The position numbers were made by a program, and so were the translations under genes. A DNA stretch of 40,708 bases from Bacillota bacterium (GTDB lineage Bacteria > Macinerneyibacteriota > Macinerneyibacteria > Macinerneyibacteriales > DSCS01). Shown here piece by piece: positions 28,992-40,708 of this stretch. The stretch lies in contig DSCS01000012.1 in the NCBI GenBank assembly GCA_011048995.1, forward strand, positions 1 to 40,708, written 5' to 3'. A model generated the notes under the pieces. That model was not told where the DNA came from, did not search any database, and was given only the letters and a program-made list of their open reading frames with translations. Numbering within the stretch: position 1 is the stretch's first letter; every line of letters starts with the position of its first letter.

Positions 28992-29019
28992 ATTTTATTC
29001 TCCCTCAGAAAAAAGTCAA
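28992..29019 (-). promoter_or_regulatory. promoter of nadB-lptE-holA
   Basis: -35 TTGACT (29014-29019, 5/6) covers the aroE-aroK stop codon; -10 TAAAAT (28992-28997, 5/6) follows after 16 bp. Transcription should start about 12 bases before the nadB ATG. Confidence 0.65.
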
Positions 29020-30317
29020 CTGTCAATCAGCTTCTGAATGGTTTTCATCTCTGAATCGATGCGCCGCGCCATTTCATCGGGGTGTAAAAGGTCAGAAAGG
29101 AGCACAGCATCAGACAGCGAAAAATAGACAGGAAGCCGCTCCTCATAGCGTTTTTTCACACTATCGATTGATTTTCCCTGTATCAGCGGCCGATTTTGGC
29201 CCCTTTCCGCGGCCTTTTCAGGAGTGTTCCACAGGAAAAACACAGAAACCCCTGCCGGGATAATATTGTGCAGATCGGAGTCCATCCATAATCCTCCACC
29301 GGAATCGATGACATCAAAGCCGAAAAGAGCCCCTTCCCCGACGATCTCGGCTTCCATGCGGCGGAATTTCCCTTCTCCTAAAGCCCTGAAAGCCTCATGG
29401 ACAGAAGATCCGGCCCGTTTAGACAATTCATTATCTGTGCTGTAAAGACTCATCCCTTTTTTTTTCAAGTGATACCCCGTAGCTGTCTTACCGGAGCCCA
29501 TAAAACCACACAGAATAACAGGCAGTCCCGGAAGGGAAATACTTTTCAGGCGTCCGGAGCTTATGTCTTCTTCAGAAGGCTGAAAACCCGTCATAATCGC
29601 ATAGGAGGCTTTCCCCTGCTCGATGAGCCATTCCTCTCCCGAAAGGACGTACAACCCCCTTTTCGAGGCTTCTCGGGTTGTTTTTGACGAAGGGTACGCC
29701 GCATCGATGATTATTCCATCGAATTCCTTATGGTCCGATAAGGCATCAGCCTGTCCCGGAAGAGCCGTGATCATAAGGGGAAATGCTTTTCTCGACTCAT
29801 CCCATGGCTGAAAACGGATTCCCAGTTCGGAAGCGGTTCTGCGCCCTTTCTCCTCCGTCCTGTTTGTCAACGTCACTGAAAAATTCAAATCCCGGGCCGC
29901 AAGGGCCGCGGCACGCGCTGCTCCCCCTGCCCCTGCAATCAAAACAGAACTCCCTGCGCTGACGCCTGTTTTGCCTATAAGCAGACGAAGAGCCGTGTAG
30001 TCCGTGTTATAAGCTCTCCAACCCTTTTCTTCTCTTACCAGTAAATTGGCGGCTCCTATGATTTTTGCTTCTTTTTCACAGGTGTCGGCACAGCCCAGTG
30101 CCTTCTCTTTCAACGGGCTGGTAATATTCAGCCCCTGCAAGGGGAAATGCGACAGTAAATAGCGGAGTTCTTCCTCTGTTTTGATGAGAAAACGCCCGTA
30201 ATGTCCGAGAGAAGCCCTCTCATTGGAAAAAAGAGAGAAAAGCTGCGGGCTTTTTGAGTGCAGAATAGGAGAACCGGCTACGCCGTAAAACAAAATATTC
30301 TCTGAAGATCTTTTCAT
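29016..30317 (-). CDS. fused shikimate dehydrogenase and shikimate kinase
   Basis: 433 residues covering two consecutive shikimate-pathway steps. The AroE half (about 1-262) has HSKSP (20-24), NITSPLK with catalytic Lys70, NTD (Asp106), the NADP loop GAGGAAR (129-135), TNRTEEKG and QGKASYAIMTG. The AroK half has the P-loop GFMGSGKTATG (271-281), STDNELSKRAG, FRRME (318-322), GGG (340-342) and NRPL (375-378). All key residues appear intact in both, so both activities are expected. The chain is short for a fusion, with little linker between the halves. The start has no convincing Shine-Dalgarno and a -10 hexamer lies five bases upstream. Confidence 0.9.
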   Translation of the reverse strand: MKRSSENILFYGVAGSPILHSKSPQLFSLFSNERASLGHYGRFLIKTEEELRYLLSHFPLQGLNITSPLKEKALGCADTCEKEAKIIGAANLLVREEKGWRAYNTDYTALRLLIGKTGVSAGSSVLIAGAGGAARAAALAARDLNFSVTLTNRTEEKGRRTASELGIRFQPWDESRKAFPLMITALPGQADALSDHKEFDGIIIDAAYPSSKTTREASKRGLYVLSGEEWLIEQGKASYAIMTGFQPSEEDISSGRLKSISLPGLPVILCGFMGSGKTATGYHLKKKGMSLYSTDNELSKRAGSSVHEAFRALGEGKFRRMEAEIVGEGALFGFDVIDSGGGLWMDSDLHNIIPAGVSVFFLWNTPEKAAERGQNRPLIQGKSIDSVKKRYEERLPVYFSLSDAVLLSDLLHPDEMARRIDSEMKTIQKLIDS

Positions 30318-30360: not shown

Positions 30361-30387
30361 AAAAAAAAGGGCCGCACGAAGCGGCCC
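30361..30387 (-). terminator. strong intrinsic terminator after the TPR/SLH gene
   Basis: On the minus strand GGGCCGC, loop TTCGT, GCGGCCC, then eight T residues. A textbook stem and U-tract starting about 8 bases after the stop codon. Confidence 0.92.
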
Positions 30388-30394
30388 CGAAGGA

Positions 30395-31489
30395 TTAATT
30401 CAAGATCGTCTTGAGTTTTTTGATAGCCATGATCGCTTTTCGTCCGGGCACTTTTTCGTCGATTCCGAAATTTCCTGAAATATCAGTATCTAAAATACCA
30501 CGGCTGGTGCAGATCATAATGGCATTAAATGCAAAATGGCTCCCGGGCACATCTGCAAAAGGAGAAGGTGTGCCGATAAACTGAGTCGCCATTTTCGGGT
30601 CATCAGCGATCTTCATCAGAACTCGGGAGATAAAAACAGCAAAATCAGCCTTTGTAATGGCGCGTTCAGGGTGGTAATTGCCGTCGGGATAAACATCAAT
30701 GATCCCGCCTTCGACAACTTTTGAAATAAAGGAATACGCCCAGAAATCGGGAGCCACATCCGGAAGGTTCAAATCTTCCTGAGGCTCATTTCCTGCACCG
30801 TACTCCTGAAATCCCTTGTTCTCTTCCTTTTTGAAAAGATTTTCCACATTGATCTCGTCTACAAAGAGAGCGGCAGCATCAGCGCGTGTGATCGCCGGAC
30901 TCATGGCAATACGACGCGCGGCTTTACCCATTCCGGCCACGGCCATCTGCATCTCGTTCAGTTCATCAAGGTATTTCATAGTCGCTGTGTCATTGCTTTT
31001 GAGCTGCAAGGCGTTGGTATACCAGCTGCGGGCGTCTTCATATTCACCCAGCCGATAATGGGCATAACCGACCATGCGAGTCGTTACTTCAGATCGTTCA
31101 TTGAGTTTGTGAGCCCTGGTAAAGGATTTCAACGCGTCTTTCGGCTCATCCATGGCCAAATAAACCTTCCCCATGACAATATGGCCTTTCCAATACTTCG
31201 AATCCTTGGAAATACACTCTTTGGCCATTTTTAAAGCTGAATCGTTTTTCCCTTCGCCCAGATAAGCATAAGCCATGCCTTCATAAGCCGGGGCGTACTT
31301 AGCATCCAGCGTCTTAGCCAGGGTGAACTCGTTAAAAGCCTTATCCCATTGCTGTACTTCGATATATTTCATTCCTTCTTTATAATGGGATTCCGGAGTA
31401 TCCATAATGCTTTCCTGTTTTCTTTCAGGGCCGCAACCGGCCATAAAGACAACAGCCAGTAAAATGATGACAGCGTACAAACGTTTCAT
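30395..31489 (-). CDS. TPR and S-layer-homology lipoprotein
   Basis: 364 residues. A signal peptide ends VFMAGC (Cys19), a lipobox. Residues about 33-175 are three to four TPR repeats (SHYKEGMKYIEVQQWDKAF, AYEGMAYAYLGEGKNDSAL, GHIVMGKVYLAMDEPKDAL, GYAHYRLGEYEDARSWY). The C-terminal half has SLH-like modules: ITRADAAALFV, then DVAPDFWAYSFISKVVEGG with DVYPDGNYHPERAITKADF, then FADVPGSHFAFNAI. In a diderm such a protein could tie the outer or inner membrane to the cell wall. The binding ligand is unknown. GGAGG precedes the ATG. Its partner LPP20 gene is upstream and a terminator follows. Confidence 0.82.
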   Translation of the reverse strand: MKRLYAVIILLAVVFMAGCGPERKQESIMDTPESHYKEGMKYIEVQQWDKAFNEFTLAKTLDAKYAPAYEGMAYAYLGEGKNDSALKMAKECISKDSKYWKGHIVMGKVYLAMDEPKDALKSFTRAHKLNERSEVTTRMVGYAHYRLGEYEDARSWYTNALQLKSNDTATMKYLDELNEMQMAVAGMGKAARRIAMSPAITRADAAALFVDEINVENLFKKEENKGFQEYGAGNEPQEDLNLPDVAPDFWAYSFISKVVEGGIIDVYPDGNYHPERAITKADFAVFISRVLMKIADDPKMATQFIGTPSPFADVPGSHFAFNAIMICTSRGILDTDISGNFGIDEKVPGRKAIMAIKKLKTILN

Positions 31490-31507
31490 ATTATTCCTCC
31501 GTCCTTG

Positions 31508-32329
31508 CTATTGAAGCAAAAGAATCACTTTACAGCGTTTGATTTGATCCAACAGGTTGGGGTCATTCGTAATTTTGGCTGCATCGTCGCCTGAGATATA
31601 GAGGTCCATGCTGTTGTCGGCAACTCCTGTGGCCTTAATAACCAGAGGGTTGGATTTCACACGGTCATCTTCTTTGGCAGCATCAGGATTTTTGGCATAA
31701 CCCACAACACCCATTTTTACGGCATAATCAGGATCCACATAGGAGGCATCATAAATCGTTGTATTATCCTGAGTATAAATCCGCGGAGACATACAGGGCA
31801 GCAGGGTGTAATCGCGCGCATCGACGATAATACCGGTATATGCCAAGTCTGAGGGTTTTGATACGCCTTCTCCCACTTTGGGGACATCTTTGGGCACATC
31901 ATAAAGGGGAAGCATCAATTTGGCCAGATCACCGGTAATGGCGATGCTCAACACGACTTCAATAGTCCCGTCTGACATGTATTTGATCTTCTCTTCTTTG
32001 TAACCCCTCAAGATCCCTTCTACTTTTGATTTGATGACATCATCTTTGAGCATAAAATTCTCAACAGTTGTTTCTGATGTCACATGGACGCCCTGCATGA
32101 CTTCAAGCAGGTTTCTCTGAGCATCCTGAAGGGCTGCTCGTTTTGCCGCAGGACGCTGAGCCGCAGCAGGCAGATTGGGATTGGGTGCACCAATTCCTAC
32201 AGACCTGATCACAAGCTCCGTCCAATCTATTTCGCCCTTGTCCATCTGTTGTATCATGTTGTTTTCCTGGGCAGGAAGCAACGCCACGGCGCACATAAGC
32301 ACAAGCGTTATAATCAATCCTTTTCTCAT
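31508..32329 (-). CDS. LPP20-family exported protein
   Basis: 273 residues with a signal peptide (MRKGLIITLVLMCAVALLPAQ is cleaved near residue 20) and no lipobox Cys. Residues about 60-140 have the LPP20 pattern: AAKRAALQDAQRNLLEVMQGV, then VHVTSETTVENF and a GYKEEKIKYMSDGTIEVVLSI strand. The C-terminal part (about 160-273) has a GIIVDARDYTLLPCMSPRI segment of the kind found after LPP20 domains. The family includes Helicobacter LPP20 and flagellar FlgP relatives, but no flagellar gene is nearby. AAGGAGGTCGAT precedes the ATG, and the TPR/SLH gene follows after 18 bases. Confidence 0.75.
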   Translation of the reverse strand: MRKGLIITLVLMCAVALLPAQENNMIQQMDKGEIDWTELVIRSVGIGAPNPNLPAAAQRPAAKRAALQDAQRNLLEVMQGVHVTSETTVENFMLKDDVIKSKVEGILRGYKEEKIKYMSDGTIEVVLSIAITGDLAKLMLPLYDVPKDVPKVGEGVSKPSDLAYTGIIVDARDYTLLPCMSPRIYTQDNTTIYDASYVDPDYAVKMGVVGYAKNPDAAKEDDRVKSNPLVIKATGVADNSMDLYISGDDAAKITNDPNLLDQIKRCKVILLLQ

Positions 32330-32361
32330 ATCGACCTCCTTGGTTCCACTAATTTGTTACA

Positions 32362-32389
32362 AGTATAGCAAGACTCTTGTTTTTATCAA
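32362..32389 (-). promoter_or_regulatory. promoter of the LPP20 / TPR-SLH unit
   Basis: -35 TTGATA (32384-32389, 5/6) and -10 TATACT (32362-32367, 5/6) are 16 bp apart. The spacer holds a small inverted repeat CAAGA-G-TCTTG on the minus strand (32369-32379), which could be an operator. Confidence 0.65.
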
Positions 32390-32396
32390 GCCCGTA

Positions 32397-33401
32397 TTAT
32401 GCAAAATTTATCCCCCATTTTATAAGAAAAATCAAAGCTCCGGCCATAACCGCGGCAGCCACGTCATCCATCATAATCCCGGTCCCGTTTTTCATTTTGT
32501 CAAACCATCGCACGGGAAAAGGCTTCCAGATATCGAAGACTCTGAACAGAATAAAAGAAGCGGCTGCAAGAGCCGGACTTCTCCCGGCCAGAAAAAGCGG
32601 AATAAACTGAGCCACAAACTCATCCATGACAATAGGCGAAGCATCATCCTGCCCGAAAAGCGTCTTTGATCGGTTGGAAAGGACAAGTCCGAGAATAAAC
32701 ATTACCGGCAATATCCACGTCAGAAGAGAGATGTGGGCAAACCCCCAGTAAAACCATATAATGACGGCAGCCAGACTTCCCCATGTCCCCGGCGCTTTTT
32801 TTATATGTCCGATATAAAAGAGCGTGAGGAAAAAGCGGCTGACCTGGTCCCAAAATTCCTGTCCGGTGACGACACCGCGGTTTTTGATATAATAATCAAT
32901 GCCCGAGTAGACGGTCATCAACAACGCCCCCCATAAGAGGGCCATATCAGTCTGTTCGAGGCTGTCAAAGGTCAGAATATTGATCATGGCGGCAATAATG
33001 GCAAAGAGCTGAAAGTTCGTCTTCACTTTCCCGCTCCAGACCGCTGCGATAACCACGTGTTTCCTCAGGGCAGCGTCCCGATGCAACGTCACATAGATCT
33101 CCCGGATCAAAAGGATCAGGACCATCCAAAGGGGAAAACGTTTCAGCCAGACCAGCAGAAAAAGAGCTGAGTAGACCAAAAGCTTATCGGCAAAGGGATC
33201 CCATATTTTTCCGAAATCGCTTATCCATTGGTATTTTCGAGCTATATAGCCGTCAAAGAAATCAGTCAGAGACATAAAAATGAAAAGCCCGAGCCCGATA
33301 TATCCATATGTCCTATTCTCATGAACCTGGGCAAAAAACCATATAAAGGCGGGAACAAGCACAATACGCAAAATTGTCAAAATATTGGGAAGCCTTCTCA
33401 T
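32397..33401 (-). CDS. fused phosphatidylglycerophosphate synthase (PgsA) and phosphatase (PgpA)
   Basis: 334 residues in the inner membrane, covering both last steps to phosphatidylglycerol. The N-terminal half (about 1-175) is a CDP-alcohol phosphatidyltransferase with DFFDGYIARKYQWISDFGKI followed by WDPFADK, giving the D-x2-D-G-x2-A-R-x8-G-x3-D-x3-D signature. The C-terminal half (about 190-334) is PgpA-like: KKAPGTWGSLAAV, IVMDEFVAQ, FRVFDIWKPFPV and NGTGIMMDDVAA. PgpA is usually a separate protein. The product supplies the lipid used by Lgt. It overlaps rimO by four bases and is the last gene of the rnj unit. Confidence 0.9.
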   Translation of the reverse strand: MRRLPNILTILRIVLVPAFIWFFAQVHENRTYGYIGLGLFIFMSLTDFFDGYIARKYQWISDFGKIWDPFADKLLVYSALFLLVWLKRFPLWMVLILLIREIYVTLHRDAALRKHVVIAAVWSGKVKTNFQLFAIIAAMINILTFDSLEQTDMALLWGALLMTVYSGIDYYIKNRGVVTGQEFWDQVSRFFLTLFYIGHIKKAPGTWGSLAAVIIWFYWGFAHISLLTWILPVMFILGLVLSNRSKTLFGQDDASPIVMDEFVAQFIPLFLAGRSPALAAASFILFRVFDIWKPFPVRWFDKMKNGTGIMMDDVAAAVMAGALIFLIKWGINFA

Positions 33402-40168: not shown

Positions 40169-40708
40169 TCACTTGTCAATCGTGATAGCGCTTTCGGCAC
40201 TTTTCAGGGCTTCGTTGTCCCGGGTATAATCCAGGGGTGTGTAGCCGTAGGTATCCTCAGCCCATCGGTCAGCCCCCAGGTCAACGAGTGTTATGAAAAC
40301 GGTAAGTGTTTTGCTCTCAACAGCTGCCGCATGGAGAGGCGTCCAGTTGTTGACATCACGAGCATTGACATCAGCGCCCCCCCTCACCAGGGCAATGATG
40401 ATCTCAGGGTGTTTATTGGAGGCCGCTGCAGTATGCAGGGGCGTCCAGCTGTAGTCGTTCTCTTCATTAACCTTGGCCCCGTTTTTCAGAAGAAGCGTTA
40501 TGATCTTCGGATTATCCTGGCTTTCCGCTGCCAGATGAAGCGGCGTCTCCCCGTATTGTGTCCGGGCGTGGATATCAGATCCGCTCAAAAGAAGGACATT
40601 CACGACTTCAAGGCTGGAATTGAACCCGCAGGCTTCATGGAGAGGCGTCCAGCCGTATCGGTTGACCGCCTTCACATCGGCCCCGGCCCGGAGAAGCGCC
40701 GATACCAC
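40169..40708 (-). CDS. ankyrin-repeat protein, N-terminus outside the window
   Basis: The last 179 residues of a protein whose start lies beyond the right edge. It is made of ankyrin repeats of about 34 residues, marked by GWTPLH, GETPLH, SWTPLH, NWTPLH and GYTPLD. The unit is one residue longer than the canonical 33. The final repeat ends DYTRDNEALKSAESAITIDK. No catalytic motif is visible. Likely a protein-binding scaffold; location cannot be judged without the N-terminus. Confidence 0.85.
   Translation of the reverse strand: MVSALLRAGADVKAVNRYGWTPLHEACGFNSSLEVVNVLLLSGSDIHARTQYGETPLHLAAESQDNPKIITLLLKNGAKVNEENDYSWTPLHTAAASNKHPEIIIALVRGGADVNARDVNNWTPLHAAAVESKTLTVFITLVDLGADRWAEDTYGYTPLDYTRDNEALKSAESAITIDK

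Follow-up and report, generated by a model that had tools for sequence, protein, structure and literature searches.

The two-gene unit described here occupies positions 30,395 to 32,329 of a 40,708-nucleotide stretch of DNA (contig DSCS01000012.1 of assembly GCA_011048995.1), which was analysed at its full length and is referred to as the window. The first gene encodes an LPP20-like protein, and the second encodes a lipoprotein in which tetratricopeptide repeats (TPR) are followed by a surface-layer homology (SLH) module, termed the TPR-SLH lipoprotein. The features of the unit are given below in the order in which they would be transcribed, with the basis of each call in brackets.

32362-32389, (-) strand: promoter-like TTGATA-N16-TATACT with an extended -10, TG preceding the second hexamer (consensus scan and conservation)
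32335-32341, (-) strand: ribosome-binding site AAGGAGG before the LPP20-like gene (sequence)
31508-32329, (-) strand: coding sequence of the LPP20-like protein, 273 amino acids (aa), of the Tp0624 D1-D2 type, signal peptide without lipobox
31934-32257, (-) strand: domain D1, an LPP20/FlgP-type SHS2 domain, residues ~25-132 (profile and fold matches)
32000-32092, (-) strand: insert separating the SHS2 helix from the second strand, residues 80-110, at the place of the FlgP ring-forming hairpin (profile alignment and model)
31511-31849, (-) strand: domain D2, matching D2 of Tp0624, residues ~161-273 (profile and fold, 5jir_B)
31496-31500, (-) strand: ribosome-binding site GGAGG before the TPR-SLH gene (sequence)
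30395-31489, (-) strand: coding sequence of the TPR-SLH lipoprotein, 364 aa
31433-31444, (-) strand: lipobox MAGC with Cys19 (alignment of 26 members)
31385-31402, (-) strand: invariant DTPxxH motif following the lipobox, at residues 30-35 (all four named residues present in 26/26 members)
30932-31396, (-) strand: TPR array, residues ~32-186 (Pfam, model and fold search)
30401-30925, (-) strand: SLH module, residues ~189-363 (Pfam, profile, model and alignment)
30368-30388, (-) strand: intrinsic terminator-like stem of 8 pairs, 7 of them G-C, followed by T7 (scan and conservation)

The region is a genuine, conserved two-gene unit. The genes are separated by 18 bp and each is preceded by a GGAGG-type ribosome-binding site. 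The consensus scan of the window returned six promoter-like sites where 4.0 are expected and two terminator-like sites where 2.1 are expected; as these counts are near chance, the promoter and terminator calls are used only together with their conservation in two related genomes, G001 of the same genus and G002 of the same order. Read by eye, G001 carries promoter hexamers and spacing identical to those of the window at the same place, while G002 carries TTGATA-N17-TATATT with differing flanking bases. Both have a G+C-rich stem with a T run at the place of the terminator, the stem of G002 differing in sequence. The earlier note on this DNA had proposed a unit with its own promoter and terminator, and these same-place signals bear it out. 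Both genes are under purifying selection in the comparison with G001 (dN 0.060 and dS 1.61 for one, dN 0.100 and dS 2.99 for the other, with dS near saturation).

The pairing extends well beyond close relatives. When 84,980 species genomes were scanned with A1, an alignment of the LPP20-like family, 44 loci were obtained; 26 of them have a TPR-SLH gene immediately downstream in the same orientation, no more than 300 bp away, and one more has it at a distance of 3.1 kb. The taxon labels of the 26 paired loci, taken unchecked from the titles of metagenome-assembled genomes (MAGs), are Mcinerneyibacteriota, Calditrichota, KSB1, Fibrobacteres, Nitrospirae, Bacteroidetes, Desulfobacterales and other 'Deltaproteobacteria', Desulfovibrionaceae and unnamed bacteria. 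A test not chosen by the LPP20-like gene searched 241 genomes with both families and found 28 with a TPR-SLH match, 22 of them at E <= 1e-70, a threshold for full-length proteins that was set after viewing the results. In 19 of the 22 an LPP20-like gene lies no more than 270 bp away on the same strand, 16 times upstream as in the window and three times downstream. The remaining three comprise one genome with the partner 2.2 kb off on the opposite strand and two without a partner on the contig, whose matches begin 24 and 148 bases into it. Under the threshold, G177 encodes the TPR-SLH protein in two pieces and has an LPP20-like gene in the same orientation 1.1 kb upstream, and G033, G123, G127 and G255 give partial matches. 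The earlier note had looked to conservation of the pair across diderm genomes to settle its case, and the two genes do indeed keep together.

The only Pfam match of the LPP20-like protein is LPP20 (PF02169), at 21.6 bits and thus under the cut-off of 25.9. With the same model 28 of the 32 family members reach E <= 0.01, 1.3e-7 being the best value, whereas no NCBIfam model matches any of the 32 at that level. The protein has an ordinary signal peptide without a lipobox Cys, and the N-terminal part of A4, the alignment of the 32 members that served as profile, contains no invariant Cys. A4 matches Tp0624 of Treponema pallidum (5jir_B) with an E value of 4.3e-18 over profile positions 28-277 of 277, and the D2 model superimposes onto D2 of Tp0624 with a Z score of 17.6 and a root-mean-square deviation (rmsd) of 1.8 over 112 residues at 37% identity. 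In the Tp0624 report D1 is likened to trigger factor, D2 is left without an analogue, and D1 and D2 are said to occur together without the third domain, D3, in nearly 50 proteins (PMC5104382). As that report compared D1 to trigger factor, the link between D1 and FlgP is an addition of the present analysis.

Over D1 the A4 profile matches FlgP chains (8z5n_2, E 6.4e-8; 9yds, E 1.5e-4), and its top lipoprotein match, 9hmf_C (E 9.9e-13), comes from a Campylobacter jejuni motor scaffold entry and is presumably FlgP. By fold D1 matches Lpp20 (5ok8, Z 7.5, rmsd 3.4, 81 residues aligned), FlgT (3w1e, Z 6.5, rmsd 2.5, 66 residues aligned) and also dodecins (Z ~5.5), Z scores below 8 being weak by themselves. 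A study of the FlgP-type family links ring formation to an insert that separates the SHS2 helix from the second strand (PMC12222027). The A4 alignments to 9hmf_C and 8z5n_2 pass through this insert ungapped, and in the predicted monomer (mean predicted local distance difference test score, pLDDT, 75.9; predicted template modelling score, pTM, 0.44) it falls between the helix at 55-79 and the strand at 111-117. The insert is as well conserved as the SHS2 helix (mean majority fraction 0.65 for both) yet is modelled with low pLDDT (means of 35 and 42 within residues 81-100), which is suggestive of a part that orders on assembly. Judged by these profiles, D1 is FlgP-like with the ring-linked insert kept. 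The earlier note is to be corrected on the first protein, which lacks a lipobox, and it had missed the Tp0624 D1-D2/FlgP type.

The TPR-SLH lipoprotein matches TPR_2 at 58.8 bits (cut-off 27) and SLH (PF00395) at 51.9 bits (cut-off 20.8), and whole-protein scans of the 26 members aligned in A3 find SLH in all of them and TPR_2 in 25. The lipobox Cys is invariant in the 26, and the residue following it is Gly in 20, Ala in five and Thr in one, never Asp. A residue other than Asp at this place directs lipoproteins to the outer membrane under the sorting rule of E. coli, which may not apply here. The order of lipobox, TPR and SLH is thus real and conserved, as the earlier note had read it, and no characterised protein of this order was found described in the open-licence literature. 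The 'SLH-like modules' of that note are to be read as follows: the match is over cut-off, and the module consists of a half-repeat keeping the ITRAD helix, one clear repeat (~244-295) and one degenerate repeat (~313-363). The predicted structure (mean pLDDT 87.5, pTM 0.68) places three longer helices of the SLH-core type (202-213, 280-295, 349-363) after the TPRs. A fold search with the whole model, in which the SLH part was not compared, listed TPR proteins only, among them PilF (2fi7, 2ho1), and the family profile matches SLH chains of Sap (6bt4, E 4.4e-13; 3pyw, E 8.8e-13).

In S-layer proteins the ligand residues of the SLH repeat are Trp13, Gly29 and Arg43 (PMC6081394), and the grooves were assigned here by inference from that paper. 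In the window protein the main repeat keeps Trp13 and has Val for Gly29 and Lys for Arg43, and the last repeat has Phe, Thr and Gly. Throughout the family the Arg43 of the half-repeat, which comes first, is kept in 26/26 members and is accompanied by an aromatic residue in 17/26. In the main repeat position 13 is Trp in 16 members and Tyr in one, position 43 is Arg in 20 and Lys in six, and position 29 is Gly in none of the 26, a column that is reliable for 12 rows (the window included) because an insertion adjoins it in the other 14; Gly29 is retained in 0/12 of the rows aligned without the insertion. The last repeat has Gly at the Arg43 position in 25/25. A complete second groove is found in none of the 26 and a complete third groove in two (L102 and L103), with Phe for Trp.

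CsaB (TIGR03609) is over its cut-off in 0/30 genomes holding a TPR-SLH protein, with weaker matches in nine; many of the 30 are MAGs and completeness is known for three (97-99.7%), and 4/14 control genomes are positive. The broader pyruvyltransferase family PF04230 is present in three of six genomes searched, G002 included, and was not found in the other three, G000, G001 and G008, the window genome being one of those without it. The sole SLH matches of the window genome lie in the TPR-SLH gene. PF00395 at E <= 1e-3 per stretch is detected in 23/30 genomes, and since the whole-protein scans find SLH in 26/26 members the seven misses reflect divergence or truncation; the match was verified as the TPR-SLH protein by coordinates in G000, G001, G002, G008 and G047 and by frame length in the others, of which at least G081 (479-aa frame) holds a different SLH protein. 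On the incomplete ligand residues and the lack of CsaB over cut-off and of PF04230, classical S-layer anchoring was rejected for the window protein. The proposal of the earlier note that the module binds wall polysaccharide in the known way thus largely falls for this protein, although the SLH part may make wall contact of another kind. A plain replacement of Pal is likewise unsupported, as Pal is over cut-off in 12/30 genomes with the TPR-SLH protein and an OmpA-domain gene occurs in 6/6 genomes searched, the window genome among them, whose sole Pal-type match scores 71.8 bits (cut-off 125.35) in a 692-aa frame.

It is proposed, tentatively and at a probability slightly below even, that the pair forms a periplasmic scaffold associated with the outer membrane: the ring-type protein would assemble with itself and be anchored by the TPR-SLH lipoprotein. 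The LptE and LolA genes encoded in the window indicate a diderm cell with an outer membrane and lipoprotein transport. The D1-D2 protein would be exported and self-assemble via its FlgP-type SHS2 domain, with the insert ordering on assembly and D2 as the second module of the assembling protein. The lipoprotein would probably sit in the inner leaflet of the outer membrane, and its TPR arm would hold the D1-D2 protein or a partner shared with it. The three-helix end derived from SLH would make a contact, most likely with peptidoglycan itself and not with a pyruvylated polymer, and the assembly would thereby space or couple membrane and wall. The outer-membrane location, the self-assembly, the interaction of the two proteins and the wall contact are what we infer from the domains, the lipobox, the conservation of the pair, the relation to Tp0624 D1-D2 and FlgP, and the lack of CsaB over cut-off.

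Several observations weigh against this scaffold. Because the SLH ligand residues are incomplete, wall contact is its least secure step; the fold matches of D1 have intermediate Z scores, and the predicted LPP20-like structure, with a pTM of 0.44, is weak as a whole. At 17 of the 44 LPP20-like loci there is no TPR-SLH gene within 4 kb, three of these loci lying at contig ends, and a TPR-SLH match at E <= 1e-70 is found in 20 of the 30 tabulated genomes with A4 matches (39 listed). Compared with the 19 of 22 TPR-SLH genes that are partnered, the 17 partnerless loci indicate that the TPR-SLH protein rarely occurs without its partner and that the LPP20-like family is wider. In the other direction G225 encodes a near full-length TPR-SLH protein (E 5.7e-53), and no LPP20-type match reaches 1e-20 there.

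Treponema provides the best independent hint of D1-D2 working next to a wall module, since its D1-D2 unit is fused to an OmpA-like domain (PMC5104382). By analogy, D1-D2 would stand beside a module of the wall-binding type in cis in Treponema and in trans in the window pair. Like Tp0624, the window protein has D1 and D2 in one chain. Unlike Tp0624, it ends after D2 without the OmpA-like D3, and the TPR-SLH lipoprotein is encoded next door; the D3 of Tp0624 is reported to be unable to bind diaminopimelate (PMC5104382). The window D1 resembles FlgP by profile, insert included, and Lpp20 and FlgT by fold, but differs from all three in the extra D2, the absence of a lipobox, the lack of a tie to flagella and an LPP20 score under cut-off.

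A precedent for an SLH module with another ligand is provided by OmpM of the Negativicutes and other diderm Terrabacteria, an outer-membrane protein with a periplasmic SLH part that in the Negativicutes binds polyaminated peptidoglycan (PMC10628300). An SLH can therefore do without a pyruvylated polymer. In OmpM, a beta-barrel porin, the SLH is N-terminal and keeps the Trp and Gly, whereas in the window protein it is C-terminal and follows a lipid anchor and a TPR arm. The S-layer anchors SpaA of Paenibacillus alvei and Sap share recognisable SLH repeats with the window protein, and its family profile matches the Sap chains; the window protein differs from them in its incomplete ligand residues, the lack of CsaB over cut-off and in being the periplasmic lipoprotein of a diderm.

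Among other explanations the best surviving, though unlikely, is that the pair is an accessory of CsgG-type outer-membrane export, supporting a secretion pore with the TPR-SLH lipoprotein as a docking or assembly factor. This would be in keeping with the neighbours of the 44 loci: a CsgG-type gene (E < 1e-12; three Pfam-confirmed) at ten, a FecR-domain gene in the same orientation and no more than 4 kb away at 19, and a second LPP20-type gene of ~400 aa at 13, where it immediately follows the pair or the LPP20-like gene. However, no CsgG-type gene is seen at most of the paired loci, and neither a CsgG-type nor a FecR gene lies near the pair in the three Mcinerneyibacteriota genomes, CsgG not having been searched elsewhere in the window genome. 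A CHASE2-cyclase gene is present at seven of the 44 loci; a match of this type at L073 is weak (74.9 bits) and was left uncounted. LPP20-type, FecR-domain, CsgG-type and CHASE2-cyclase genes are clustered in varying order at L059/L103, L074, L078, L083, L085, L090 and L091, and these clusters look like an envelope export or sensing module.

Less probable still is that the TPR-SLH protein is a general TPR assembly lipoprotein, BamD- or PilF-like, with SLH as a protein-protein module and the LPP20-like protein as client. The TPR fold, the lipobox, the PilF fold matches and the sub-cut-off scores with the PilW model (48.3 bits against 154) and the BamD model (33.3 bits against 81.4) agree with it, but such PilW, BamD and PilF matches are what any TPR lipoprotein gives, and no secretin, pilus or Bam gene adjoins the pair in the window. 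A flagellar accessory, made of a FlgP-type disk and its anchor, is very improbable. It is suggested by the FlgP-like D1 and by Helicobacter pylori, where flgP shares an operon with a lipoprotein gene (FapH, HP0838) that matters for the outer-membrane barrier (PMC11756786). That operon is flagellar and the likeness is one of operon layout, the FapH sequence not having been compared with TPR-SLH. FlgI is found in 13/30 genomes with the TPR-SLH protein, a count on which a flagellar role as general function was rejected; it was not found in the other 17, nor in G001, G002 or the window genome (99.7% complete), and there is no flagellar gene in the window. The strict form of the earlier reading, in which the SLH part binds pyruvylated wall polymer as S-layer proteins do, has the slightest chance, since the over-cut-off SLH match, the first-repeat Arg with its frequent aromatic, the aromatic-Gly-Arg set kept for one groove in L102 and L103 and the PF04230 genes of three genomes are set against CsaB over cut-off in none of the 30 (controls 4/14), the absence of PF04230 from G000, G001 and G008, Gly29 replaced in 12/12 reliable rows and Gly for Arg43 in the last repeat of 25/25.

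Each part of the proposed scaffold is of a known kind. No description of the conserved pairing, of an SLH lipoprotein without CsaB or of the link between Tp0624 D1-D2 and FlgP was found in the open-licence literature, nor any paper joining LPP20 with SLH. If true, the scaffold would give a partner and a likely setting to the D1-D2 unit of Tp0624, whose D2 fold has no known function, would give FlgP-type domains a conserved non-flagellar role and would be a clear instance of SLH being retained where the enzyme making its usual ligand is lacking. The pair is a small stand-alone operon, and the partner families are widespread, including lineages with culturable members. A wider and rather doubtful extension is that many diderm phyla couple outer membrane and wall independently of CsaB, that proteins of the FlgP type serve primarily as envelope scaffolds and secondarily in flagella, a lipoprotein holding them whose SLH was re-tooled from S-layer anchoring to another ligand, and that Tp0624 is the same system with the wall module in cis.

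The window genome comprises 1.88 Mb in 75 contigs. The pair is preceded on its own strand by ftsK, lolA, rimO and a pgsA-pgpA fusion, of which ftsK and rimO were named from their sequences, and these upstream genes are the same in the window genome, G001 and G002. The fusion (32397-33401) joins phosphatidylglycerophosphate synthase-type and PgpA phosphatase domains in 334 aa, and G001 and G002 also have a chain of similar length ahead of the pair. Neither the Rfam nor the tRNA search of the window gave a match. On another contig of the window genome (L066, contig C11, 4904-8895) three consecutive (-) strand genes encode a weak LPP20-type protein of 395 aa, a DUF6175 protein of 394 aa and a possible outer-membrane barrel of 511 aa; this trio may be the displaced rest of the cluster found downstream of the pair in other phyla. 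D1-D2-type proteins are also encoded in diderm Firmicutes, in several copies in a Veillonellaceae MAG (L109, 5695-10028) and in a Selenomonadaceae MAG (L107, 6998-8104). Elsewhere in the window, 29016-30317 encodes a 433-aa chain in which a shikimate dehydrogenase N-terminal domain is fused to shikimate kinase, and 40172-40708 encodes an ankyrin-repeat protein cut by the window end.

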